The notes beneath the pieces are model-generated. The model had not been told where the DNA came from and searched no databases. It saw only the letters and a list, made by a program, of their open reading frames with translations. From positions 1 to 64,000 of the IMG/VR virus record IMGVR_UViG_3300020172_002590: 64,000 nt of DNA. One strand, 5' to 3'. Both the position numbers and the translations under genes were made by a program. This DNA comes from a virus. Numbering within the stretch: position 1 is the stretch's first letter; each line of letters starts with the position of its first letter. This document shows positions 6,138 to 19,259 of this stretch, in pieces.

Positions 6138-6560
6138 ATGCTCACAAAACAACAAGAACAGCAATTGATCAGCCTCATTCCAGAGGGCACAAATGGCGAA
6201 GACCGCAGGGTTGCCTATTCTGTTATTACTGGGATACGAGAGGATAAGACTCCATCTCAAATTGCTGGTTACTACACAGCAGATCCAGATTTGGTAAATA
6301 AGTGGTACGACTTCTTTGGCTTCTCTAAGCCCAATTCACCACAAAAGTCTGGTAGAGGTCGCAAGAGTAAGGACTTGGCTGGCTTTATTAAGAGTAATAC
6401 AGGGCGTGTTGTAACTCCAAAGATCGTATCAGATGAACTTGGAATTTCTTTGCCTACTTTTTATAATTATTATAACGCTAATCGTCATCTTTTTAAGAAA
6501 GTAAGACGAGGAGAATTTGAAATTATCAATCCAGAAAAGGAAAGAAGTTCTTCAAAATGA
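6138..6560 (+). CDS. Helix-turn-helix DNA-binding protein
   Basis: A 140-residue protein. Residues about 25-55 (REDKTPSQIAGYYTADPDLVNKWY) and about 90-115 (VVTPKIVSDELGISLPTFYNYY) each look like a helix-turn-helix. Between them is GRGRKSKDL, an RGRKS segment also found in the small basic proteins at 15608 and 16464. It starts after GAAAGGAAAAAGA. It is probably a regulator; its target may be the palindrome in its own promoter. Confidence 0.65.
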   Translation: MLTKQQEQQLISLIPEGTNGEDRRVAYSVITGIREDKTPSQIAGYYTADPDLVNKWYDFFGFSKPNSPQKSGRGRKSKDLAGFIKSNTGRVVTPKIVSDELGISLPTFYNYYNANRHLFKKVRRGEFEIINPEKERSSSK

Positions 6561-9025: not shown

Positions 9026-9667
9026 ATGCCAGAGTTAAACGCAAATATACCACCAATTGAATGCTATGTAAGAGGCAACTATCTTCGTGATCAAAAGGAT
9101 TCACACGATAAATACTTCCCATGTATGATTTTTGGAGTCGCCTCAATTCAAGGAAGAAGTCCCCTATTTCATTTTCTAATGGAAGATGGCGGTGTTTGGT
9201 GGAGAATGCCAATTAGTGCGTTCTGTGCAGAGCCTGATACCCCTGAAGTGGACATTCACGACCTTGTGTTGTGGAATTCTTTCAGTCCTCATGTGACCGT
9301 AACCGAGTTTCAGGCTATGAGAAACATGAGAATGACATATGTAAGCCGCTCAGGAGAGTTTGTAAAGGGTAAATATCTCTTTACGCTTGACTGGCATGCC
9401 CCAGATGACAATACCACCAACCTTGGATTCAGTACAAATCCCGGTCAACATAAGTGTGGTCATGTAATATTGCGGGATGATGGTAATTTTGCCATTCAGC
9501 CAAATAATCGGGTCCGTCTATTTGACCCTTCATACACGACAAAAGATGGTAACCTTATTGATAGATTCATTAATACAAGAAAATGGGATGTGGAGGATGC
9601 TTCCAAGTGGAGAACTTCCGATGATGACCATTACTATTATGAAATCAATAATAAATTACAAGGATAA
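9026..9667 (+). CDS. Conserved phage hypothetical protein
   Basis: A 213-residue, strand-rich, soluble protein (DKYFPCMIFGVASIQGRSPL; LFTLDWHAPD; GHVILRDDGNFAIQPNNR). I associate this layout with conserved hypotheticals in phages, but cannot name a function. GGAAAGAACA precedes the ATG. Confidence 0.7.
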   Translation: MPELNANIPPIECYVRGNYLRDQKDSHDKYFPCMIFGVASIQGRSPLFHFLMEDGGVWWRMPISAFCAEPDTPEVDIHDLVLWNSFSPHVTVTEFQAMRNMRMTYVSRSGEFVKGKYLFTLDWHAPDDNTTNLGFSTNPGQHKCGHVILRDDGNFAIQPNNRVRLFDPSYTTKDGNLIDRFINTRKWDVEDASKWRTSDDDHYYYEINNKLQG

Positions 9668-9983: not shown

Positions 9984-10154
9984 ATGGAAAATCAAATAAG
10001 AAGATATAGACCACTATCATTGGGGAGTTCTAAGAAGCTGAAGCCCATTGAATTGAAATCCCATCCCTCTGATATAAGAGATAATAGATCTTTGATTAAG
10101 GGATTCTCAGAAAGAACCCAAACCCGATTTTATATTAAAAAGAAAGAGATATAA
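9984..10154 (+). CDS. Small basic hypothetical protein
   Basis: A 56-residue basic protein (IRRYRPLSLGSSKKLKPIEL; FYIKKKEI). It ends in an overlap with the next ATG (TAATG). Unrecognised. Confidence 0.5.
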   Translation: MENQIRRYRPLSLGSSKKLKPIELKSHPSDIRDNRSLIKGFSERTQTRFYIKKKEI

Positions 10155-10564
10155 TGTTAACCAAGTTAATTAAAAAACTAAATCAGATTCTCTCACGAAG
10201 GAATCAGACAACCGTAACAGAGAGTGTCTTCTATGATAGAGACAAGATTGAAGAGATTCAAGCCTTTGTTTATAAAGACCTTGATCTTATCAAGAAGAAA
10301 GCTGCTCGAACCGCTTATATCAAGAATCTTCCTCAACCGCTTTCTGAAGAAGCAATCAAGAAGATTAGAGATAATAAGATGGAATTATCCCGTGAACTTG
10401 ATCGCATGTTGCGAGACAAGCAGCTGAGAGACAAAAAGATTGCCGAGATCCAATTCAACAAGCTCTCCGATCTGCAAAACAAGATTAAGAAGCAGTACCC
10501 CGATATCTCCCCGATCCCTCGTCACCCTTCTACTCCGAAAGACAATGAGACAGATACTCCGTAA
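10154..10564 (+). CDS. Hypothetical charged helical protein
   Basis: A 136-residue, very Lys/Asp/Arg-rich protein, probably coiled coil over residues 30-110 (EEAIKKIRDNKMELSREL; LSDLQNKIKKQY). The C-terminus is Pro-rich. AAGAAAGAG precedes the ATG. Last gene before the base composition changes. Confidence 0.6.
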   Translation: MLTKLIKKLNQILSRRNQTTVTESVFYDRDKIEEIQAFVYKDLDLIKKKAARTAYIKNLPQPLSEEAIKKIRDNKMELSRELDRMLRDKQLRDKKIAEIQFNKLSDLQNKIKKQYPDISPIPRHPSTPKDNETDTP

Positions 10565-10875
10565 AAATTTAATACAAATTTTTGACGGTAAACTCCCGAT
10601 CTCAATTGTGATGAAACTCAACCGAACCCGTTTTTTCTAGCGAAGCAACTTTTCCCCAAATTTTAGTATGCAGTCGTGGAAGGCTATGCATGCATACGGT
10701 CGTGGAGAGTCTTTGTCTGTTCGCGGGGTCAATGCCATCGGATACCCCTGGGGGTACCCCTGCCCGATGAGATCCTGCATATTATGCAAGCTCGCGCCTG
10801 CCTGCCCCCGTAGATAGTGGATATCGTTGCATAAATATGCGGCGGGGTGCATAGAATAAATATGTGCGGGGGGGG
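10565..10875. other. GC-rich non-coding junction
   Basis: About 300 bp where GC rises sharply compared with the left flank. It holds GTCGTGGA twice, ATGCATGCAT, a mirror-like CCCCTGGGGGTACCCC block, two ATAAATATG repeats and a G8 run at 10869-10875. Open frames on either strand here have no ribosome-binding site and are not called. Confidence 0.6.
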
Positions 10876-10904
10876 TTGTGTTGGGTCGCCTATTGGGATA
10901 GTAT
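10876..10904 (+). promoter_or_regulatory. Cassette promoter P1
   Basis: TTGTGT at 10876-10881, 17 bp, TAGTAT at 10899-10904. First of eleven promoters of the same build in this region. Confidence 0.75.
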
Positions 10905-10909
10905 TTACT

Positions 10910-10936
10910 TATCGGGCGGGGCGGTCTCGCCCGATA
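10910..10936 (+). promoter_or_regulatory. 5' UTR hairpin before ribosome-binding site
   Basis: TATCGGGCG (10910-10918) pairs perfectly with CGCCCGATA (10928-10936). It ends directly before the GAAAGG ribosome-binding site, so it could control translation or stabilise the message. Confidence 0.5.
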
Positions 10937-10947
10937 GAAAGGCAGTA

Positions 10948-11250
10948 ATGCGTTCAGTAAATATGGCAATTGAGGAGGGTCTGGAAAGTGTTCTTTACAC
11001 TGTCGGACACGAATCAGGTCGCCGTTCCGATATTGTCCACTTCCTTTACAAGGAAGATATGGAGACTTATGTCCATTCAATCCTTGTGCCCTTGCACTTG
11101 GAAGATGATGGATTAGACCCCGATGACACCACCTCAATGTTCGCCAAGTATGACAAGTACGGCAACTATGAGGTCATCGTCAATATTGACTCTAAGACAT
11201 GGATTAAGAGTTTCAAGGTCACTGCTACCGAACGGTTCATTCAATACTGA
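10948..11250 (+). CDS. Cassette protein, hypothetical
   Basis: A 100-residue acidic protein. The ATG at 10948 follows GATAGAAAGGCAGTA, which decides the start over an upstream in-frame ATG at 10864 that lies before the promoter. The codon usage is GC-rich at third positions, unlike the left flank. No domain recognised (HDIVHFLYKEDMET-like charged helices, then beta-rich YGNYEVIVNIDSKTWIKSF). Confidence 0.65.
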   Translation: MRSVNMAIEEGLESVLYTVGHESGRRSDIVHFLYKEDMETYVHSILVPLHLEDDGLDPDDTTSMFAKYDKYGNYEVIVNIDSKTWIKSFKVTATERFIQY

Positions 11251-11257
11251 TACCCCG

Positions 11258-11324
11258 CTTGCCCCGCCCGCAAGGGCGGGGCAAGTCCCCCCAATGAGAC
11301 CCCGCCCGCAATGCGGGCGGGGTC
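11258..11324 (+). terminator. Tandem GC-rich terminators
   Basis: First stem: CTTGCCCCGCCC, loop GCAA, GGGCGGGGCAAG (11258-11285). Second stem: GACCCCGCCCGC, loop AAT, GCGGGCGGGGTC (11298-11324), followed by TTTCC. Both are perfect 12-bp stems. Confidence 0.85.
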
Positions 11325-11649
11325 TTTCCATTCCCGCCCCATTCACGCCCGCCCCGCAAACGGCTGCATCGATCGTGCTAGGACCGGGACCGAGCTCTAC
11401 ACCCTGCCATATAACTGTACGCATTTATGGGAATTGAGTATGGTCTCTTTATGTGGTTCTCTACACCACCCCAAATAGAGGCTACAAATTATGGGGATTG
11501 AGTATACGTCAAATTATGGGAAACGCTGGCCTTTCAAATTATGGCAGCCTATTTTTTCGAGGGTGTAGGGAACAAAGGTACGACTTTCTTACACCCTTTC
11601 GTCTGACGGTGTATGTGCGAGAAATTTCAACACAAATTCTGAACAATAG
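11325..11649. other. Non-coding spacer with CAAATTATGG repeats and a GGGTGTA hairpin
   Basis: CAAATTATGG occurs three times between about 11480 and 11545, and ATTTATGGG once near 11430. GGATTGAGTATA/GAATTGAGTATG is also repeated. An inverted repeat with GGGTGTA (11561-11567) and TACACCC (11590-11596) is the first member of the hairpin family described below. No supported gene. Confidence 0.6.
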
Positions 11650-11678
11650 TTGTGTTTCCCGATAGTTTCCTGTAATCT
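11650..11678 (+). promoter_or_regulatory. Cassette promoter P2 (leaderless)
   Basis: TTGTGT at 11650-11655, 17 bp, TAATCT at 11673-11678, then exactly 6 nt to the ATG at 11685. With no Shine-Dalgarno, a leaderless message is likely. Confidence 0.8.
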
Positions 11679-11684
11679 AACACT

Positions 11685-12194
11685 ATGACAAAGCGTCAAG
11701 CCAAAGCAGGTAATGGTCGCGTGGTGACCAATACCCCCAAGAGTGCGAAGGGTCAAAGCACAGTTACCAAGTCCGCTGTATTGCGTCACATTGCGACAGC
11801 ACGAACAGTGAACCTTAGTCGTGGAGTAAAGGCACACTACGACAACGAAGGCACACAGCGTTTAGCGGAAGCCATTGTCAAGTCATTCCGTATGCCAACA
11901 CTCACGGAAGCGAAACTTGCCAAGAAAGGCAAGGACATGCCCAAGAGCGCACAAGACGGAGCAATGCGTAGAGAGTTTGCTGTAGCACACAAGGCTATCG
12001 CCATAGACATCTCTATCATTCTCGGAGAGAGAAAGGGTGGACAGATTACACACAACCGCCCTGAGAACAACCTACACATGAAACTCGCAGGTATTGCCGT
12101 AGCAATGGGGCTACCTGCTAAGACTTTCTATCCCGTTCGTTCTGAAGCCGTTCGTGACGGTGAAGTGCCTACGGTGTACATAGTACGCCGATAG
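11685..12194 (+). CDS. Basic cassette protein A, paralogue of the protein at 14212
   Basis: A 169-residue basic protein with a disordered Lys/Thr-rich N-terminus. It aligns along its length with the 14212-14694 protein: GVKAHYDNEGTQRLAEAIVK against GAKANYDNEGAQLLAKAVVR, then DISIILGERKGGQITHNRPE against NVSDILGEGKNGEIIHDRPE, and matching VPTVYIVRR/IPQVFIVRK ends. No known domain recognised; basic charge suggests nucleic-acid binding, which is inference. It starts directly after promoter P2 without a leader. Confidence 0.75.
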   Translation: MTKRQAKAGNGRVVTNTPKSAKGQSTVTKSAVLRHIATARTVNLSRGVKAHYDNEGTQRLAEAIVKSFRMPTLTEAKLAKKGKDMPKSAQDGAMRREFAVAHKAIAIDISIILGERKGGQITHNRPENNLHMKLAGIAVAMGLPAKTFYPVRSEAVRDGEVPTVYIVRR

Positions 12195-12216
12195 AGCGTT
12201 CATAATCCCCCCATTG

Positions 12217-12244
12217 GAGAGCCTACCCGAAAGGGTAGGCTCTC
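12217..12244 (+). terminator. Terminator of cassette A
   Basis: GAGAGCCTACCC, loop GAAA, GGGTAGGCTCTC: a perfect 12-bp stem with a stable tetraloop. No U-run follows. Confidence 0.75.
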
Positions 12245-12264
12245 TCTGTGTGTTATGGTCTGGG

Positions 12265-12302
12265 GTGGTGTGACAAAGCCCCAGGGGGCTTTGTCACACC
12301 AC
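12265..12302. repeat. Long inverted repeat, 18-bp perfect arms
   Basis: GTGGTGTGACAAAGCCCC (12265-12282) pairs with its exact complement at 12285-12302 across a 2-nt loop. It lies between a terminator and the next promoter, like the GGGTGTA repeats. Confidence 0.8.
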
Positions 12303-12330
12303 TTCGTATGAGCGTGTCTCTATGAATAAA

Positions 12331-12393
12331 TTTAGTGCAAATTCCAAAAATAATCAGAGAATAGTTGTGTTTCCTACTTTTCCGTGTTACATT
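12331..12393 (+). promoter_or_regulatory. Cassette promoter P3 with upstream element (leaderless)
   Basis: Upstream element TTTAGTGCAAATTC (12331-12344), TTGTGT at 12365-12370, 17 bp, TACATT at 12388-12393, then 6 nt to the ATG at 12400. The upstream element recurs before P4, and in shorter form before P5 and P7. Confidence 0.75.
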
Positions 12394-12399
12394 CAGGGT

Positions 12400-12624
12400 A
12401 TGAGAAACTTTTCATACATCACACCAACACTTGACCACAACCTATTCCTGATTTCATTCGCCCGCCCAATTCGCATTCAGAGCAAGTATCTTGACTGCAT
12501 TGTGCGTAAGCGTTTCAATGACGCAATGTTGCGACACTACTCAGGTACTGTCATCATTTTCAATGTGTCTCAAATTGACGAGCGCAATTTCCGTGTTCTC
12601 TGTCTCGTTACGCCAACAGCGTAG
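12400..12624 (+). CDS. Cassette protein, small hypothetical
   Basis: A 74-residue basic protein (MRNFSYITPTLDHNLFLISF at the start; IRIQSKYLDCIVRKRFND in the middle). The leaderless start at 12400 is set by promoter spacing; an in-frame ATG at 12322 lies upstream of the promoter. Unrecognised. Confidence 0.6.
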   Translation: MRNFSYITPTLDHNLFLISFARPIRIQSKYLDCIVRKRFNDAMLRHYSGTVIIFNVSQIDERNFRVLCLVTPTA

Positions 12625-12640
12625 CGAGATAGAGAGCCAG

Positions 12641-12679
12641 GCAGGTGTAACGCCTTGGCATAGCCAGCGTTACACCTGC
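12641..12679. repeat. GGTGTA inverted repeat
   Basis: GCAGGTGTAACGC (12641-12653) pairs perfectly with GCGTTACACCTGC (12667-12679). It also sits where a terminator for the 12400 gene would be expected; no separate terminator was found. Confidence 0.85.
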
Positions 12680-12706
12680 GTCTATGTAGTCACTCACTCA
12701 GGCAAA

Positions 12707-12768
12707 TTTAGTGCAAATTCTGAAAATGTTTCTAGAAAACTTGCTATTCCAAATTTTTCAGTTATACT
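12707..12768 (+). promoter_or_regulatory. Cassette promoter P4 with upstream element (leaderless)
   Basis: TTTAGTGCAAATTC at 12707-12720, TTGCTA at 12741-12746, 16 bp, TATACT at 12763-12768, then 7 nt to the ATG at 12776. Confidence 0.7.
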
Positions 12769-12775
12769 CTTACCT

Positions 12776-13060
12776 ATGAAGAAATACAACTCATTCCAAA
12801 TGACACTTCTACCCGTTCGTGAAAACGAAGCAGGTCGTGACATTTACACCGTAGCCGTAACCATTCCCAACTATGAGTTGGGCGAGGACATTCATTTTCT
12901 CGGACTTTCCGCTCGTCAGGCGTTCATTGACGCAACGGAATTCATCAACGGAATTATCGGGCGTATGTGCGGTTTCTGTAGCGGTGTCACCACTGAAGGC
13001 GATGAGACATTCCGTAGCGCGGGCATCTGCCAGCCCTGCTACGAGAAAATCTCACTCTAA
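12776..13060 (+). CDS. Cassette protein with zinc ribbon
   Basis: A 94-residue protein: a strand-rich N-terminus (residues 1-35), a helix (46-60) and a C-terminal CGFC (65-68) and CQPC (85-88) pair, fitting a treble-clef or ribbon zinc site. The start follows from promoter spacing. Function unknown; it may bind nucleic acid. Confidence 0.7.
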   Translation: MKKYNSFQMTLLPVRENEAGRDIYTVAVTIPNYELGEDIHFLGLSARQAFIDATEFINGIIGRMCGFCSGVTTEGDETFRSAGICQPCYEKISL

Positions 13061-13080
13061 GAAAAGGACAGCACACAGGA

Positions 13081-13102
13081 GAGCGGGTCGCAAGACCCGC
13101 TC
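13081..13102 (+). terminator. Terminator
   Basis: GAGCGGGTC, loop GCAA, GACCCGCTC, then TTTTCCTTTT. The stem and loop are identical to those at 13544-13565. Confidence 0.9.
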
Positions 13103-13116
13103 TTTTCCTTTTCCGG

Positions 13117-13155
13117 GCAGGTGTAAGAGTTCGGCATAGCCGTTCTTACACCTGC
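13117..13155. repeat. GGTGTA inverted repeat
   Basis: GCAGGTGTAAGA (13117-13128) pairs perfectly with TCTTACACCTGC (13144-13155). Its loop (TTCGGCATAGCCG) can form a second small stem. Confidence 0.85.
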
Positions 13156-13182
13156 TTGTCTAAACACAACATAGAACCAGCT

Positions 13183-13272
13183 TTTAGTGCAAAAAATTAG
13201 TTGTAGTGTACAAATACTTTTTTCAAGTTTTTTTGGAATTGGGGTTGTGTTTGCCTTTGGATTTGTTATGCT
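13183..13272 (+). promoter_or_regulatory. Cassette promoter P5 with upstream element
   Basis: Upstream element TTTAGTGCAAAA (13183-13194), TTGTGT at 13245-13250, 16 bp, TATGCT at 13267-13272. The segment TTTTTGGAATTGGGGTTGTG before and into the -35 is repeated almost exactly before P8. Confidence 0.75.
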
Positions 13273-13278
13273 GTGTGT

Positions 13279-13299
13279 ATGGCAATAGTGCCAGAGTGA
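13279..13299 (+). CDS. Possible six-residue leader peptide MAIVPE
   Basis: An ATG lies exactly 6 nt after the -10 box of P5, the same spacing as the leaderless starts of other cassettes. It opens a six-codon frame ending in TGA at 13297-13299, just before the AAAGGA ribosome-binding site of the next gene. It may be a real leader peptide or a relic of a leaderless start. Confidence 0.35.
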   Translation: MAIVPE

Positions 13300-13310
13300 A
13301 AGGAACTCCA

Positions 13311-13517
13311 ATGCGAGTCTTTGATAGCCCCGACAACAAACTGTCCGACATTCTTGACCAAATGCAGGCAGAAGCCGTTGCTTGGGAGAGCGTATTCTCA
13401 CCACAGTTCATTGCAGGAATGATTTACGCCTGCGAGTGCCTGCGTAACAGCGCAAGCAACATGAAGGGCAACGGCGTTCTCTTGAACGAAGCAGTCCTAG
13501 TTCGCCCAAAAAAATAG
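13311..13517 (+). CDS. Cassette protein, small helical
   Basis: A 68-residue protein with helical segments (SDILDQMQAEAVAWESVF; FIAGMIYACECLRNSASNM). The ATG at 13311 follows GTGAAAGGAACTCCA. An earlier in-frame start at 13206 would precede the promoter. Unrecognised. Confidence 0.65.
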   Translation: MRVFDSPDNKLSDILDQMQAEAVAWESVFSPQFIAGMIYACECLRNSASNMKGNGVLLNEAVLVRPKK

Positions 13518-13543
13518 AAAGGAGAGTTTTTCTTCTGCGGGAA

Positions 13544-13565
13544 GAGCGGGTCGCAAGACCCGCTC
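13544..13565 (+). terminator. Terminator
   Basis: GAGCGGGTC, GCAA, GACCCGCTC, then TTTTG; an exact copy of the stem at 13081-13102. Confidence 0.88.
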
Positions 13566-13578
13566 TTTTGCTTTCCTG

Positions 13579-13617
13579 GCGGGTGTAGATCTATTGGCTC
13601 CGCCGATCTACACCCGC
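13579..13617. repeat. GGGTGTA inverted repeat
   Basis: GCGGGTGTAGATC (13579-13591) pairs perfectly with GATCTACACCCGC (13605-13617). Confidence 0.85.
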
Positions 13618-13656
13618 AGGTACGAAATAACAACACATAAAGATTTGAGTATGTGT

Positions 13657-13685
13657 TTGTAATTGCCTTTAGTAACTGATAGGGT
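13657..13685 (+). promoter_or_regulatory. Cassette promoter P6 (leaderless GTG start)
   Basis: TTGTAA at 13657-13662, 17 bp, TAGGGT at 13680-13685, then 6 nt to GTG at 13692. The constant spacing supports a GTG leaderless start. Confidence 0.65.
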
Positions 13686-13691
13686 GAAGCC

Positions 13692-13904
13692 GTGACAAAC
13701 ACACACACGCCGACTGAAGTTACAGAGGCAAAATCAGCACCCCGCTACTACGAAGAATTGGTCAAGGACTTAGTTGAGACCCTTGCCCTCGGAGACTTTC
13801 AGGAACTGTTCCTGAACTTCTTGTCTCACTACGAGGACAACCTTGAGGTTCTCAAGACCGCCCGTATCTGCTACGGAGACCTCATAGCCGAAATCTACGG
13901 CTAA
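13692..13904 (+). CDS. Cassette protein, small acidic
   Basis: A 70-residue acidic helical protein starting at GTG (YYEELVKDLVETLALGDFQE; LSHYEDNLEVLKTARICYGD). Start chosen by promoter spacing. Unrecognised. Confidence 0.65.
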   Translation: MTNTHTPTEVTEAKSAPRYYEELVKDLVETLALGDFQELFLNFLSHYEDNLEVLKTARICYGDLIAEIYG

Positions 13905-13924
13905 GACCCCCAGCCCCCCCAGCG

Positions 13925-13951
13925 GACCCCCTCTCAGAGCGAGAGGGGGTC
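13925..13951 (+). terminator. Terminator
   Basis: GACCCCCTCTC, loop AGAGC, GAGAGGGGGTC, then TTGCT. Perfect 11-bp stem. Confidence 0.85.
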
Positions 13952-13960
13952 TTGCTATTG

Positions 13961-14107
13961 GCGGGTGTAGACGCTCGGCTCCGCTCGACTCCTACACCCG
14001 TGTAATAAAAGCAAATATACCTTTATGTAGAGTATACAAATTCCAATTGATATTGACTTTGCTGCAGGCGGGTGTGGTGCAAAGCAAACGCAGTGATCCA
14101 CACCCGC
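13961..14107. repeat. Two consecutive GGGTGTA/GGGTGTG inverted repeats
   Basis: The first has GCGGGTGTAG at 13961-13970 facing CCTACACCCG at 13991-14000. The second has GCGGGTGTGG at 14068-14077 facing CCACACCCGC at 14098-14107. The space between holds ACCTTTATGTAGAGTATAC. There is no gene between them: either a cassette was lost here or the repeats spread on their own. Confidence 0.8.
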
Positions 14108-14134
14108 GAGCTTGATACGATTGTTCCGAGCGTT

Positions 14135-14205
14135 TTTAGTGAAAAAATGTAATCAGAAAAAAAATTGTGTTAGTAGTTGTATTTACTAATGGAGTGCGTT
14201 AGTAT
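14135..14205 (+). promoter_or_regulatory. Cassette promoter P7 (leaderless)
   Basis: Upstream element TTTAGTGAAAAAAT (14135-14148), TTGTAT at 14177-14182, 17 bp, TAGTAT at 14200-14205, then 6 nt to the ATG at 14212. A further TTGTGT lies at 14165. Confidence 0.75.
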
Positions 14206-14211
14206 GTCCCT

Positions 14212-14694
14212 ATGGCATCAACACCTAAGACTACTGCTAAGCAGGGTCGCAATACCAAGTCCACCCCGACCGCAAAGGTCACCTACACGGCAGTAATGGC
14301 GCACATCGCTAGTGCTCGTAGTTTCCGCCTCGCACAAGGCGCAAAGGCTAACTACGACAATGAAGGCGCACAACTACTCGCAAAGGCTGTCGTGAGAGCG
14401 TCTGCTATGCCAACAATGGCGAGTGAAGGTATCACTACCGACAAGGCTCGCCCAATGGCTCAGGCTCGCCGTGAGTTCGCTCGCAAGCGCAAGGCTCACC
14501 TACTCAATGTTTCCGACATTCTCGGTGAAGGTAAGAACGGCGAGATTATCCACGACCGCCCCGAAAATACCATTCGTATTCGCCTTGCGTCTATTGCTAA
14601 GGCAATGGGACTGCCAGCAGACACCTACTACGCCGTGAGAGCGAATGAGTACGCCGTAGGCGACATTCCGCAAGTGTTCATCGTTCGCAAATAG
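14212..14694 (+). CDS. Basic cassette protein A', paralogue of the protein at 11685
   Basis: A 160-residue basic protein with a Lys/Thr-rich tail (residues 1-25) and a core shared with the 11685 protein, including GAKANYDNEGAQLLAKAVVR, DILGEGKNGEIIHDRPEN and MGLPADTYYAVR. The two genes have similar length, promoter type and terminator layout, so the whole cassette may have duplicated. Function unknown; nucleic-acid binding is a guess from charge. Confidence 0.75.
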   Translation: MASTPKTTAKQGRNTKSTPTAKVTYTAVMAHIASARSFRLAQGAKANYDNEGAQLLAKAVVRASAMPTMASEGITTDKARPMAQARREFARKRKAHLLNVSDILGEGKNGEIIHDRPENTIRIRLASIAKAMGLPADTYYAVRANEYAVGDIPQVFIVRK

Positions 14695-14720
14695 CGAACG
14701 CCTAACCGCCCCCCCCCAAT

Positions 14721-14748
14721 GAAGCCCCGCTCGTCTGAGCGGGGCTTC
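14721..14748 (+). terminator. Terminator
   Basis: GAAGCCCCGCTC, loop GTCT, GAGCGGGGCTTC. Perfect 12-bp stem. Confidence 0.85.
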
Positions 14749-14759
14749 ACATCGTATGG

Positions 14760-14798
14760 GCGGGCGTAAGATCTGCGCAAGCTTGATCTTACGCCCGC
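14760..14798. repeat. GGGCGTA inverted repeat
   Basis: GCGGGCGTAAGATC (14760-14773) pairs perfectly with GATCTTACGCCCGC (14785-14798). The first TGTAATATTACA palindrome starts 2 nt later. Confidence 0.85.
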
Positions 14799-14887
14799 GT
14801 GTAATATTACATTGAGACCTTTATGTTTAGTACATAATTTCAAATTATGATTACCTAGAAAAAATAGAAACATTTTTGGAATTGGGG

Positions 14888-14916
14888 TTGTGTTTCTCTA
14901 TTAGTTTGGTTAGTAT
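14888..14916 (+). promoter_or_regulatory. Cassette promoter P8
   Basis: TTGTGT at 14888-14893, 17 bp, TAGTAT at 14911-14916. The upstream TTTTTGGAATTGGGG block matches P5. A leader of about 30 nt with GAAAGAA precedes the ATG at 14955. Confidence 0.8.
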
Positions 14917-14954
14917 GTACATACAAGGCGCAAGCCCCTAACGAAAGAAAAAAA

Positions 14955-15245
14955 ATGAAAGTTCCACCGCTAAAAGTGCAGACCATTGTCCACCTAGAAA
15001 TGCCGTACGACATGTATCTTTTTGTTCTGTATTGCATGGCAACCTACAACAACCCAACAGATGAAGACGCAAAAGCGCTACATAAGAATGCTTGGGAGTT
15101 TGCAGAGTCATTGGGCGCAGAGTCACCTCACCATTTCATTGCAGAAAATGTTCCGTTTATGAAGAACTACTGCACTCAGTTGTTGCAACTGTCAAGCACA
15201 GCAAAAGAGCAAGCAGACCTCGCTTACTCGGCTCTGTATCGCTAA
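14955..15245 (+). CDS. Cassette protein, helical hypothetical
   Basis: A 96-residue mostly helical protein (MPYDMYLFVLYCMATYNNPT; DAKALHKNAWEFAESLG; LLQLSSTAKEQADLAY). AACGAAAGAAAAAAA precedes the ATG. Unrecognised. Confidence 0.65.
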   Translation: MKVPPLKVQTIVHLEMPYDMYLFVLYCMATYNNPTDEDAKALHKNAWEFAESLGAESPHHFIAENVPFMKNYCTQLLQLSSTAKEQADLAYSALYR

Positions 15246-15250
15246 TCCGT

Positions 15251-15274
15251 TGGGGGCAGGTAACACTGCCCCCA
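15251..15274 (+). terminator. Terminator
   Basis: TGGGGGCAG, loop GTAACA, CTGCCCCCA. Perfect 9-bp stem directly after the stop codon. Confidence 0.75.
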
Positions 15275-15281
15275 TAAGCGG

Positions 15282-15320
15282 GCAGGTGTAAGGCTCTTGC
15301 TTTGCGAGCCTTACACCTGC
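15282..15320. repeat. GGTGTA inverted repeat
   Basis: GCAGGTGTAAGGCTC (15282-15296) pairs perfectly with GAGCCTTACACCTGC (15306-15320). TGTAATGTTACA follows at 15324. The rest of the gap up to 15513 has only TGTAAT-type and CTTTATGG repeats. Confidence 0.85.
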
Positions 15321-15513
15321 GTCTGTAATGTTACACGATCAGAAAAATTGAGTGTGTATATGTAATATTACTTAGCCTATCTTTATGGATGTAATATTAC
15401 AATCCTGAACTTTATGGAGCTGTGTAATATAAGAGATCCTGTGTAACATAAGCTGTAATTTTAGAAAACCCGTGTAATACTAGAAAAAAACCTGAAAAAA
15501 CTTGGAAAGGTAG

Positions 15514-15542
15514 TTGTGTTCCTTAGGTAGTTCCTGTATCTT
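15514..15542 (+). promoter_or_regulatory. Cassette promoter P9
   Basis: TTGTGT at 15514-15519, 17 bp, TATCTT at 15537-15542. A 65-nt leader follows (GGAAACGCCCC; GCGGAAAGTATCCGC small stem) before AGGAAAGACA and the ATG. Confidence 0.75.
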
Positions 15543-15607
15543 TATAAATACCAAAGGGAAACGCCCCGATGGTGCGGAAAGTATCCGCTAGTTAGATAGG
15601 AAAGACA

Positions 15608-15898
15608 ATGGACTTTGAGTTTATTGACGAAAACGACATTCAGGCTGTACGCCGTGGACGTAAGTCCACAGCCCCCGCCGAATTGGTAGATGCGTTTGCC
15701 AAGATGCCAAAGGGTAAGGCTATTCGCCTTACAGGTCTACGCCAAGACCCAACTAGCCCTGAATATAAGAATGACAAGGCAACGGTCTCTGCCACCATTC
15801 GCACAGCAGGCAAGTTGGCAGGCGTAGCGGTCTCTATCAGTTGGTCACCCGATGGTGTTCCACAGGTAAAGACCAAGATGGTCAAGGCTAAGAAGTAG
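15608..15898 (+). CDS. FEFIDE-family basic protein B1
   Basis: A 96-residue protein starting MDFEFIDENDIQAVRRGRKS. After the RGRKS segment it has a helix (PAELVDAFAKMPKGKAIRL), a variable loop, a second helix (ATIRTAGKLAG) and a strand (VAVSISWSPDGVPQV), with a Lys-rich tail. It is paralogous to the proteins at 16464 and 17117. RGRK resembles an AT-hook core. I infer a small DNA-binding protein; the family is unknown to me. AGGAAAG precedes the ATG. Confidence 0.75.
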   Translation: MDFEFIDENDIQAVRRGRKSTAPAELVDAFAKMPKGKAIRLTGLRQDPTSPEYKNDKATVSATIRTAGKLAGVAVSISWSPDGVPQVKTKMVKAKK

Positions 15899-15922
15899 CA
15901 CCCCCCGCTACCAGCCTTGATA

Positions 15923-15954
15923 GGGGCTAGGGTGTCTGTCATCACCCTAGCCCC
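15923..15954 (+). terminator. Terminator, followed by a second GC stem
   Basis: GGGGCTAGGGTG, loop of 8, CACCCTAGCCCC. A second perfect stem, CCCGCCCGCC with GGCGGGCGGG, follows at 15964-15990 and overlaps the next inverted repeat. Confidence 0.8.
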
Positions 15955-15985
15955 GCCCCTTACCCCGCCCGCCCTAATCAGGCGG

Positions 15986-16025
15986 GCGGGCGTAATGAAG
16001 TCGTTCCTTTGTTCATTACGCCCGC
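15986..16025. repeat. GGGCGTA inverted repeat
   Basis: GCGGGCGTAATGAA (15986-15999) pairs perfectly with TTCATTACGCCCGC (16012-16025), followed by TTTT. Further right to 16246 there are TGTAAT-type repeats only. Confidence 0.85.
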
Positions 16026-16246
16026 TTTTCTAATCGTAACATTACACACAAATTTAGTATGAATTTGTAATATTACATAGAGTAAATCCTGGAGCTTGAT
16101 CGTGTAATATAAGAGATCGTGTAATATAAGATCGTGTAATAATAGACCGTGTAACTTTATGTCAAGCTGTGTAACATAAGGGATCCCGTGTAACATAAGA
16201 AACGGAGATACTTGCACACTACAACTATTATTTTTTCCGTTTGACG

Positions 16247-16275
16247 TTGTGTTTCCCTATTGGCTCGGATAATCT
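16247..16275 (+). promoter_or_regulatory. Cassette promoter P10
   Basis: TTGTGT at 16247-16252, 17 bp, TAATCT at 16270-16275. Confidence 0.8.
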
Positions 16276-16463
16276 AATACTTGTCAGATTGACACTCGGT
16301 TACGGGGTTCGGTTAGGCAGGTGATTTTCACCTAGCAGTTTCCGCCCGTTTCGGTTCTGACCTAGCAAGAGTGAAGGGTCGTAGTAGGCGCACCATAATC
16401 CCCTACAAGTCACCATTGGCAATGGTGATTATTCAAAAAAAACTTTCAAGAAAGGCTTTCATA
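16276..16463 (+). ncRNA. Long structured 5' leader of the 16464 gene
   Basis: The leader is about 185 nt, far longer than for other cassettes. Visible stems: AGGTGA with TCACCT, and CACCATT with AATGGTG shortly before the A-rich ribosome-binding site. GACCTAGCA/CACCTAGCA is repeated. It could be a translation-controlling leader bound by a protein or ligand; no known riboswitch class was recognised. Confidence 0.4.
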
Positions 16464-16766
16464 ATGGATTTTGAATTTATTGATGAAGGCGACATTGAAG
16501 GCGTAAAGCGTGGTCGCAAGTCGCAGGTTCCACAAGAACTCATTGACTTGTTCAAGGCTATCCCAGCAGGCAAGGCAGTCCGACTGTCTGAGTTTGCAGG
16601 TGACCCAACAGACCCCGATTACAAGACACACAAGCAGAACGCAGGTTCTACTATCCGTCAGGCTAGTAAGCAGGCAGGCATTGAAATCCGTATTTCATGG
16701 TCGCCCGCAGGCGTTCCGCAGGTGTCTCGTAAAGCGCCTAAAAAGGTCGCCAAGTCTGCCAAGTAA
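16464..16766 (+). CDS. FEFIDE-family basic protein B2
   Basis: A 100-residue protein starting MDFEFIDEGDIEGVKRGRKS, closely paralogous to the 15608 protein: the same helix (PQELIDLFKAIPAGKAVRL), the same IRQASKQAG helix, ISWSPAGVPQV strand and a Lys/Ala tail. The ATG at 16464 after AAGAAAGG is chosen because it gives the same N-terminus as its paralogue. Proposed DNA-binding role is inference. Confidence 0.75.
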   Translation: MDFEFIDEGDIEGVKRGRKSQVPQELIDLFKAIPAGKAVRLSEFAGDPTDPDYKTHKQNAGSTIRQASKQAGIEIRISWSPAGVPQVSRKAPKKVAKSAK

Positions 16767-16829
16767 TTAGGCAGGCGTAGCGCACATACCGCCTAGAGTG
16801 CCGAAGCACTGCAACGGTATGGAAAATGT

Positions 16830-16862
16830 AACCCCGACACACTCGCCAAGTGTGTCGGGGTT
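16830..16862 (+). terminator. Strong Rho-independent terminator
   Basis: AACCCCGACACACT, loop CGCCA, AGTGTGTCGGGGTT, then CTTTTTTT. Perfect 14-bp stem. Confidence 0.95.
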
Positions 16863-16883
16863 CTTTTTTTGCCCGCTTACGGG

Positions 16884-16921
16884 CGGGTGTAGATCACTGC
16901 GTTTGCTACGCACTACACCCG
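16884..16921. repeat. GGGTGTA inverted repeat
   Basis: CGGGTGTAG (16884-16892) pairs with CTACACCCG (16913-16921). TGTAATGTTACA follows at 16922. The rest of the gap up to 17056 contains CTTTATG repeats and another TGTAATATTACA. Confidence 0.8.
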
Positions 16922-17056
16922 TGTAATGTTACACATCTTTATCGTAAATTATAATACATATTTGTAATCACATTATAGCTAATATATTTTATTACCTTTA
17001 TGTAATCTTTATGGGGGTATGTAATATTACATACCATCGCGCAAATAAAAAAAAAG

Positions 17057-17082
17057 AAAGGGTAGCATTTCTGCTACCCTTT
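17057..17082 (-). terminator. Terminator of the minus-strand FEFIDE gene
   Basis: AAAGGGTAGCA, loop TTTC, TGCTACCCTTT. Read on the minus strand it is followed by a long T-run. Confidence 0.88.
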
Positions 17083-17116
17083 CCCGGACTCTTAGTGAAC
17101 TATTTGTTTTATTTAT

Positions 17117-17431
17117 TTAGGAAACTTTTTTCGCGTATGGGACATTCTTTATGTCCCAAGTAATGCGAACCTTTTTCCAACCTGCAATTTTTGCCTGATT
17201 ACGAATAATCGCGGAATTTGCAGCCTTAGCAGTTTTCTTATCTTCCGCCGTAACAAATTCGTCACCCAATGCCAAGTTTGCTACCTTGACAATTTGACCA
17301 ATTTTTGCCTTAGCAAAAAACTCAACCATCTCAGGAATAACGACAGCCTTACGCCCACGCTTTACTGATTCAATTTCTGATTCTTCAATGAACTCAAATG
17401 AGAATCCATTTTCTTCGTTTTTTGGAGCCAT
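17117..17431 (-). CDS. FEFIDE-family basic protein B3, inverted
   Basis: A 104-residue protein; residues 11-27 read FSFEFIEESEIESVKRG, then RKAVVIPEMVEFFAKAKIGQ and ANSAIIRNQAKIAGWKKVRI. It shares the order of segments with B1 and B2 but is more diverged, AT-rich, and on the opposite strand, so it may be an older copy. AAAAGAGAGAAAA precedes the ATG. Likely DNA-binding by analogy only. Confidence 0.72.
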   Translation of the reverse strand: MAPKNEENGFSFEFIEESEIESVKRGRKAVVIPEMVEFFAKAKIGQIVKVANLALGDEFVTAEDKKTAKAANSAIIRNQAKIAGWKKVRITWDIKNVPYAKKVS

Positions 17432-17828
17432 TTTTCTCTCTTTTCTTTTAGTTATTTGGCTATTTATTTGACACGTTCACCGAGTCATTTATCACGATAT
17501 CGGGGAGAATGGCGAACAACTACCGATAAATAAAAAAATATAAAAAAGATCCATTTCTCAACAAAATACGCGATCTAATCCAGGATGTAATATTACAGGG
17601 GTTGTAATATTACACGGATGGGTGTAAGTGAGTCGGTACCCGAACTTACACCCATTTGTAATATTACACGATACTATAAAAATATAGTGTGTAATTTAAG
17701 AATTGCTACCTTTATTTCCATCTAATCGCGTATCTAATCCTGGATCTAATTCTTTATCTTTATATACTTTATGGAACCCCCAAACCTTTACAAATTATGT
17801 GAACTTCTAAAAAAGCTATTTCCGCACG
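17432..17828. other. Non-coding spacer with GGGTGTA repeat and palindromes
   Basis: Between two divergent cassettes. It contains ATGGGTGTAAGT (17618-17629) paired perfectly with ACTTACACCCAT (17644-17655), flanked on each side by TGTAATATTACA copies. Repeats of CTAATC and CTTTATGG follow. No gene seen. Confidence 0.75.
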
Positions 17829-17857
17829 TTGGAAATCTAATTTCTACACGGTAGGAT
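17829..17857 (+). promoter_or_regulatory. Cassette promoter P11
   Basis: TTGGAA at 17829-17834, 17 bp, TAGGAT at 17852-17857. The leader of about 60 nt ends in CCGAAAGGAAAATCTA before the ATG. Confidence 0.6.
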
Positions 17858-17919
17858 ATCTATATGGTGAGAAATATCTCAATAAACCAAATCCAATTCA
17901 TAACCGAAAGGAAAATCTA

Positions 17920-18408
17920 ATGTCTCCGATTGAAAACTTATTCAATGAACCAACAAAAGCTTTAGCAATTATTGCACATCTTTCAAAAAATCACGAAATT
18001 GTTGCTACAACAATTACTGAACTTCATATGCAATTAATTAATGCAACTTCTACTGCAAACCAATTAGATAACTTTTTGCAAAAGTTAAATGATATGCAAA
18101 TCCCAAAAAATATGTTTAACAATTTGGAGGCTGCTATTTCTGAACGTCAAAAAATGGAAAATCTTTTAGACAATAATGAAATTAGTCGTGCTGATTTAGA
18201 CCTATACATAATGGAAACCTTTTCTTTAACTGATGACCTTTGTTCAATTGGACAACAATTTGTAACACTTGTTGGAAAAAATGACCAATTTAATCTTCAA
18301 AACATTGTTGTTAACTTTGACACAATTTTTGTAAAACTATATAACCTTTTTCACGAAGTTGCTTTAACCACATTTGAACTTGTTAAAGAATACGGTTCTC
18401 TTAACTAA
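17920..18408 (+). CDS. Cassette protein, all-helical hypothetical
   Basis: A 162-residue protein, predicted helical (LAIIAHLSKNHEIVATTITE; NLEAAISERQKMENLLDNNE), weakly acidic, AT-rich codons unlike the GC-rich cassettes. AAAGGA precedes the ATG. Unrecognised. Confidence 0.65.
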   Translation: MSPIENLFNEPTKALAIIAHLSKNHEIVATTITELHMQLINATSTANQLDNFLQKLNDMQIPKNMFNNLEAAISERQKMENLLDNNEISRADLDLYIMETFSLTDDLCSIGQQFVTLVGKNDQFNLQNIVVNFDTIFVKLYNLFHEVALTTFELVKEYGSLN

Positions 18409-18424
18409 TAACTAATAAATAACT

Positions 18425-18454
18425 AAAAGGGTAGACGTTTGTCTACCCTTTTTT
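18425..18454 (+). terminator. Rho-independent terminator
   Basis: AAAAGGGTAGAC, loop GTTT, GTCTACCCTTTT, then TTT. Perfect 12-bp stem, and the last plus-strand terminator before the divergent region. Confidence 0.93.
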
Positions 18455-19259
18455 TATGCCCAAATGCCGGGCGTGTAATATTACACCATTTGTAATATTA
18501 CACGGTGATGGACAAATTGTAGTATGTAATATTACAGTGCTATCTTTATGAAAAACTAAAACTAAATTCTAATCTAAATCCAAATCCTAACATCCCGGCA
18601 CCTTTATGGCGGGGCAATAGGCTTACTAATACTACGTCTGATACCTGATCTATTCCTAGAGGGTATTGACTACCTATAGATAGGTATTACAGCATTGTAA
18701 TTTGCACATTTATAGCCTCAAAACACACACTAAAATTCTCACAAATAAAAACCGCCTGATTTATGAGCATTTTACTGCCTTTTTGATTGATTTTATAAAC
18801 AATTAGTTTGTTTTTTTATATAATTAGTAACATTTTCTCACCTTTATGGGGGGTACTTATCCACAATATTATCCACAATTCGGGGGATAAGTCTTATTCT
18901 GTATAGAGATAGATAGAGTATACAATGTCTGATCGCGCACCAGTTTATCTAATATATTTCTACCTTTATTTAGTACGCTAAACAAGCCCATTATACAATT
19001 CTGGATATAAATCGGAAGTAATTCCTTAGCACATCTCCGTATGCCTTAAAGGAATCTATTTACCTACCTAATCTATATCTAATCTATACTTCTTCTATCT
19101 AGGTATCTATTAAATATCTAGACCGGTTTTTTCAGAATCCATTATTTCTTCCAATCCCCTAGCCATAGAGTTATGGAGAATCTTCCTCAGTTTCCGAACC
19201 ATTCTCCATGTGTAATACCAGAGTCTTATCCTTCTATAAAGACTTATCATAACCCCTCC
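18455..19259. other. Divergent non-coding region, candidate replication origin
   Basis: About 800 bp without a supported gene, between the plus-strand left part and the all-minus right part. It holds three TGTAATATTACA copies (18474-18536), CTTTATGG copies, two perfect DnaA-type boxes TTATCCACA (18857-18865 and 18869-18877, 12 bp apart) and AT-rich, TCTATCTA-rich sequence to 19.1 kb. Strand switch plus DnaA boxes plus AT-rich DNA fit an origin. This is inference; GC skew was not computed. Confidence 0.5.

Follow-up and report, generated by a model that had tools for sequence, protein, structure and literature searches.

Phased palindromes at the boundaries of accessory gene cassettes in an actinobacteriophage-type genome and their association with a family of small basic proteins

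Introduction

Why would a phage place copy after copy of one 12-bp palindrome in the short gaps between a few small genes? The question is raised by positions 14800–18536 of the window, the first 64,000 nucleotides of the IMG/VR virus record IMGVR_UViG_3300020172_002590, where intergenic dyads are interleaved with three genes of a small protein family termed FEFIDE and with genes that vary between relatives. A previous sequence-only reading of this stretch proposed an operator or iteron array for one phage protein, perhaps serving segregation, origin control or silencing. Comparison with related, uncultured phages leads to a related answer, for which the balance of confidence and doubt is about even: a nucleoprotein array resembling stoperators or operators, in which a single phage protein, probably FEFIDE, would occupy the boundaries of accessory cassettes, with these boundaries doubling as recombination junctions.

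The dyad array and its register

The array comprises ten exact TGTAATATTACA dyads and two TGTAATGTTACA (Table 1). Near dyads at 15324, 15361 and 16922 depart from the TGTAATATTACA consensus by one mismatch, while the one at 16035 has two mismatches to the consensus and one to TGTAANNTTACA. The ten exact and four near-exact dyads of the sequence-only reading were recovered at their positions, all of them intergenic and outside all credible genes, these being the three FEFIDE and three variable cassette genes of Table 1. That reading had seen no dyads elsewhere in the window and had proposed a whole-genome count of the motif, which extends the observation to the complete record of 81,457 bp: the motif is clustered, exact TGTAATATTACA lying inside the array in 10 of 10 cases and TGTAANNTTACA within 3.7 kb in 12 of 12. 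Dinucleotide shuffling predicts approximately 0.01 TGTAANNTTACA in the array span, against the 12 observed. With up to two mismatches allowed the window contains 25 matches where 7.2 are expected, a number attained in none of 100 dinucleotide shuffles.

Besides full dyads, the array holds asymmetric half-units (GTGTAAYNNWAG or its mirror image), and its hairpins have arms of the form TGTAA...TTACA, that is, half-units. Taking TGTAA, TTACA and CTTTATG as marks of 12-bp units, the window array contains 47 units versus 16 in shuffles, which bears out the many degenerate half sites noticed previously, and 10 neighbour spacings of 15–17 bp versus 0.16 in shuffles. The unit pitch is 15–20 bp in the window’s clade and 16 bp in most phages of dyad class I (defined below), whose arrays each hold 10–38 spacings of 15–17 bp versus 0.1–0.3 in shuffles. 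Their longest phased runs reach 11 units, and the neighbours of exact dyads peak at positions -16 and +16. Unit spacing in classes II and III is without a single sharp peak, which limits the finding of a 16-bp register to class I. A register of this kind would be anticipated where protein molecules sit side by side on the DNA, but not for passive repeats. Reverse half-units (TTACA) are dense in and between the short reading frames of multi-gene cassettes in two relatives (L016 7954–8383 and L034 3573–4220).

FEFIDE proteins

Of the array genes, only those of the FEFIDE family occur in 11 of 11 phages compared, the other cassette genes being patchy. FEFIDE genes lie inside every array, across all three dyad classes, in the order +, +, - in 13 of 16 loci, and the 14 loci returned by a FEFIDE profile search all belong to array phages. 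The proteins are small and basic, with an isoelectric point of 9.2–10.8 in 45 of 45 extracted sequences, and share the invariant residues R16, G17, R18 (the RGR motif), K57, R65 and P85. The genes themselves contain no dyad. The convergent gap between FEFIDE 2 and FEFIDE 3 holds 2–7 dyads in all 13 arrays having the third gene, and L034 and L047 have an additional rightward cassette within it. The assignment of the dyads to FEFIDE is built on association and chemistry, and is not proof.

Searches of Pfam, PHROGs and PDB with FEFIDE gave nothing above noise. INPHARED contained no match to the protein, the DNA of the array region likewise lacking a match to known phages, and a single peptide pattern, the only probe applied to bacterial genomes, was found in 0 of 84,980. 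AlphaFold models (predicted local distance difference test score, pLDDT, 79–80) show an alpha/beta fold with middling matches, including SpoVS and IF3-C-like structures among unrelated ones. Rfam returned nothing above the gathering score. A known host or plasmid motif was considered and rejected, the literature search having found no relevant paper that contains the dyad motif.

Dyad classes among relatives

Searches with paired dyads and with FEFIDE identified about fourteen further IMG/VR records carrying the array. Class-I records contain 12–31 TGTAANNTTACA each, clustered in 3–8 kb, with a centre dinucleotide that follows the clade: TA/CA in that of the window, GT/GA in L017–L021 and mixtures in others. 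L060 and L061 carry TCTAACGTTAGA (class II; 34 core copies in L060), and L062 carries TTAACGTTAA in 23 copies. It is chiefly the base pairs outside a TAANNTTA core that distinguish the three dyad classes, and L060, L061 and L062 keep both FEFIDE and the layout of one-gene cassettes, one per gap, despite the altered dyad. These comparisons lend good support to an array for one phage protein, since the sites are clustered and phased, their layout is conserved, and the dyad changes between lineages while layout and FEFIDE stay.

The pair search at 4–5 bp spacing also returned two phages that were set apart, FEFIDE being absent from the DNA read. One is an unrelated phage (G015, L107–L109; IMGVR_UViG_3300018080_000225, 53.8 kb) with 16 TGTAANNTTACA, 15 of them within TTGTAANNTTACAA, spread genome-wide and mostly intergenic in a manner that resembles the distribution of stoperators. 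The other (L089; IMGVR_UViG_3300014913_000106) has seven long GGGTGTAACGTTACACCC-type palindromes, mostly in gaps. Just upstream of FEFIDE 1 in L016, at 9050–9067, is a perfect 16-bp parS-like palindrome, TGTTTCACGTGAAACA.

Cassette seams

The best-shown property of the dyads is that they are seams of cassette exchange, and two exchange or loss events are edged by them. L015 and L016 share a 432-bp cassette at 95.6% identity (coding 96.0%, non-coding 95.0 and 95.8%), their other homologous array stretches being 67–76% identical. The 250 bp flanking the cassette are 24% and 41% identical, at chance level (random pairs average 32%), and both of its ends fall 8 bp or less from a dyad centre in each of the two phages. 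The window is without this L015 cassette, and its junction is one 25-bp stretch holding the 16066 dyad. Conversely, the cassette at 17920 is missing from L015 (G001), the nearest relative, where a single dyad replaces 17657–18491. L034 and L047, compared with L045, have an extra cassette with dyads at both edges, and direct repeats of 25–80 bp flank gained or lost cassettes. A search with cassette DNA retrieved one further contig only, a chance match. The cassette region at 10000–16000 of the window stands out by its GC content, 46–48% versus 29–41% for the remainder, as would fit genes that were acquired recently.

Promoters and the CTTTATG motif

A -10-like hexamer lies 26–31 bp past the dyad start in 21 cases versus 2.8 expected, 7.5-fold above elsewhere, an offset at which the dyad’s right half occupies the -35 position. 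Judged from this spacing, some dyads do sit at predicted promoters. Hairpins adjoin dyads and -10-like sites in the gaps of the variable region, and separate gene-proximal promoters of the form TTGTRT-17-TAGTAT are predicted at 14177 and 14888.

CTTTATG is enriched in the arrays of all three dyad classes, in class I often starting 20–21 bp past the dyad start. Over eleven arrays, convergent gaps included, it lies on one strand in 139 cases versus 9 on the other. Since its orientation tracks the genome rather than the genes, it may have a part in replication or in some other process with a direction.

Genome context and feature coordinates

The window genome encodes a DnaE-type polymerase, primase, DnaB helicase, UvsX-like recombinase, terminase, thymidylate synthase and glycosyltransferases, its nearest isolated relatives being Streptomyces phages of the Stanwilliamsviridae (polymerase 38%, terminase 42–43%). 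Genes run rightward left of 18.4 kb and leftward right of 19.3 kb, and the array ends at the convergent non-coding gap between them, which is kept in relatives.

Table 1. Positions of dyads, half-units, promoter-like motifs and genes in and around the array (window coordinates; aa, amino acids; HTH, helix-turn-helix)
Feature	Position	Strand	Remarks
Weakly HTH-like protein	6138..6560	+	Rival candidate binder; HTH_23 match E 0.038, below cut-off
CTTTATG (11 copies in or beside the array)	14021, 14819, 15381, 15410, 16155, 16996, 17007, 17767, 18544 (18544..18550), 18602, 18842	+	
Variable cassette gene, 160 aa	14212..14694	+	P2-type promoter TTGTAT-17-TAGTAT predicted at 14177
Exact dyad TGTAATATTACA	14800..14811		Gap between genes 14212–14694 and 14955–15245
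Variable cassette gene, 96 aa	14955..15245	+	Promoter TTGTGT-17-TAGTAT predicted at 14888
Dyad TGTAATGTTACA	15324..15335		
Near dyad TGTAATATTACT	15361..15372		
Exact dyad TGTAATATTACA	15390..15401		
Four left half-units (GTGTAAYNNWAG)	15422..15484	+	12–19 bp apart
FEFIDE protein 1, 96 aa	15608..15898	+	Basic; RGRK
Near dyad CGTAACATTACA	16035..16046		
-10-like TAGTAT	16055..16060	+	8 bp past 16035 dyad; within 25-bp repeat where a relative has an extra cassette
Exact dyad TGTAATATTACA	16066..16077		
Six left half-units GTGTAAYNTAAG/CTTTATG	16102..16200	+	15–20 bp apart
FEFIDE protein 2, 100 aa	16464..16766	+	
Dyad TGTAATGTTACA	16922..16933		In convergent gap; TATAAT at 16950, 16 bp on
Exact dyad TGTAATATTACA	17020..17031		In convergent gap 16767–17116
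FEFIDE protein 3, about 104 aa	17117..17431	-	Convergent to protein 2
Exact dyad TGTAATATTACA	17586..17597		
Exact dyad TGTAATATTACA	17603..17614		17 bp from 17586 dyad
Hairpin GGGTGTAAG..CTTACACCC	17618..17652	+	Arms are half-units in register with dyads on either side (run D-D-L-R-D)
Exact dyad TGTAATATTACA	17657..17668		Left seam of 17920 cassette
Variable cassette gene, 162 aa	17920..18408	+	DUF3231-like match, weak and below cut-off; scan with the protein gave no other relative
Exact dyad TGTAATATTACA	18474..18485		
Exact dyad TGTAATATTACA	18491..18502		Right seam of 17920 cassette
Exact dyad TGTAATATTACA (last)	18525..18536		Followed by CTTTATG at 18544
Two TTATCCACA DnaA-box-like sites	18857..18877 (at 18857, 18869)	+	In the non-coding gap between rightward and leftward genes

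Interpretation

Under the reading favoured here, dyads and half-dyads would be the sites of one phage-encoded, sequence-specific DNA-binding protein, the likeliest binder being one of the FEFIDE proteins, of which the array encodes three. Phased clusters of these sites mark every boundary between one-gene accessory cassettes, and the bound protein would coat each boundary to serve as both operator and transcription insulator, controlling promoters that have a dyad overlapping their -35 region, and blocking read-through between cassettes, convergent gaps included. A silencing or insulation role of this kind is plausible. Whole cassettes would be exchanged or lost by crossover at the boundaries, presumably through ordinary homologous recombination, given the near-identity in sequence among all of them. 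Within the earlier proposal it is the array for one phage protein that stands, in view of the clustering, the phasing and the layout that is kept. Dyads between convergent genes do not fit a plain operator array, and promoter operators as the whole story are ruled out by the dyads in 13 of 13 convergent gaps and at exchange seams, while a plain iteron origin fits poorly with sites that are spread over 3.7–8 kb at every gene boundary.

Several points weigh against a FEFIDE-bound cassette-boundary array. Enrichment of breakpoints over all pairs is modest, with 37% within 20 bp of a dyad versus 22% expected, since the ends of alignments between distant phages are mostly not real breakpoints. The strand-locked CTTTATG is left unexplained by a one-protein model, one site does not require three FEFIDE paralogues, and the predicted FEFIDE fold is without significant match to solved structures (best Z about 5). 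In addition, the HTH-like protein encoded at 6138 occurs in 6 of 6 class-I records tested and is 43–96% identical in relatives, which makes it, together with its weak HTH_23 match, the main alternative binder. The same operator and insulator array would then be bound either by this protein or by a host regulator, a possibility that is judged unlikely, though it is the likeliest of the rivals. The 6138 protein is encoded 8 kb from the array, and a search of the partial class-II record did not find it, whereas every array contains FEFIDE, whichever of the three dyad classes it belongs to; for a host regulator, the occurrence of three dyad classes in related phages is not readily explained.

Alternatively, the phased units could act like iterons or a centromere and seed a complex for replication initiation or segregation beside an origin, with the cassettes between them incidental. 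The 15–20 bp phasing, the two DnaA-box-like sites with the conserved non-coding gap close by, and a CTTTATG fixed to one strand whatever the gene direction are in keeping with such a complex. Yet the sites extend over the whole array at every cassette boundary, and GC skew turns with gene direction and not at the candidate spot. The sequence-only statement that the dyads end just before a candidate origin holds as to position, the last dyad ending about 320 bp before the first TTATCCACA box, but GC skew provides no origin signal. The segregation role suggested at the same time finds no backing, as ParA (PF13614) and ParB (PF02195) gave no family match in seven records, possibly incomplete, and an origin or segregation complex is on the whole improbable. 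More improbable still is that the dyads are merely recombination junctions or a spreading repeat, kept for cassette exchange without a bound protein. Exact seams at the dyads and the direct repeats around gained or lost cassettes agree with this; passive repeats, however, need neither a 16-bp register nor palindromic symmetry nor a lineage-specific switch of the core with all else unchanged.

A bolder extension of the favoured reading is that FEFIDE would be a hitherto undescribed family of phage proteins that bind DNA sequence-specifically and form filaments, coating phased dyads as a platform for accessory genes, with boundaries that insulate and direct recombinase-free cassette exchange, and with protein and dyad specificity changing together between lineages. 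In this full form the proposal is considered doubtful.

Comparison with known systems

Accessory genes of phages turn over fast, and what sets the seams is seldom visible. Here one can see the seam together with a regulatory site and a candidate protein, and the three sequence classes offer built-in specificity controls, so that cassette exchange and insulation become directly testable in vitro. If FEFIDE binds the dyads, it would constitute a new DNA-binding family without a recognisable relative in Pfam or PHROGs.

Iteron origins, as recognised by plasmid Rep proteins, combine phased 15–20 bp repeats, full dyads and half-sites of one sequence, with DnaA boxes nearby. The array is similar in having phased repeats near DnaA-box-like sites, but its sites stand at every cassette boundary with cassettes interleaved, and a Rep gene was not recognised among the proteins scanned. 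It differs from ParABS partition in the absence of ParA and ParB matches described above. The nearest isolated Streptomyces phages encode, in a small-gene region, two small Lsr2-type DNA-bridging proteins with an RGR motif (e.g., BillNye gp039 and gp040). This motif alone is common to them and FEFIDE, which does not match Pfam Lsr2; Lsr2 was not found in seven array-phage records, and the dyad array is absent from the 87 kb of BillNye read.

The stoperators of cluster A mycobacteriophages, temperate phages with an L5-type repressor, are asymmetric 13-mers, oriented with transcription, distributed genome-wide and bound by an HTH repressor monomer (PMC9283540). The array resembles them in that one short site recurs many times in the narrow spaces between genes of an actinobacteriophage-type genome, and control of both initiation and elongation would be a similar job. 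Unlike stoperators, the sites are confined to one 4–8 kb region and phased at ~16 bp, and the full sites are perfect dyads, also found between convergent genes, only the half-units being asymmetric. Integrase (tyrosine or serine recombinase) and HTH_3 repressor were not found in nine array-phage records, possibly incomplete.

The PeSL elements of T4-type phages, according to the excerpted account, are repeats of a promoter and stem-loop between the small genes of a variable region, which shuffle gene modules (Arbiol 2010; Comeau 2014; via PMC4503421). Promoter-like sites and hairpins likewise occur together in variable-region gaps here, and the edges of cassette exchange or loss lie at the element, which presumably causes the exchange. 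The phage genome, however, is not a T4-type myovirus but Stanwilliamsviridae-like (38–43% in polymerase and terminase), and the excerpt of PMC4503421 describes neither phased 12-bp dyads nor a coupled DNA-binding family nor dyad classes. An operator- or stoperator-like site and a PeSL-like exchange role each have precedents, while the combination of phased dyads, a linked uncharacterised protein family and lineage-specific dyad classes matches neither stoperators nor PeSL.

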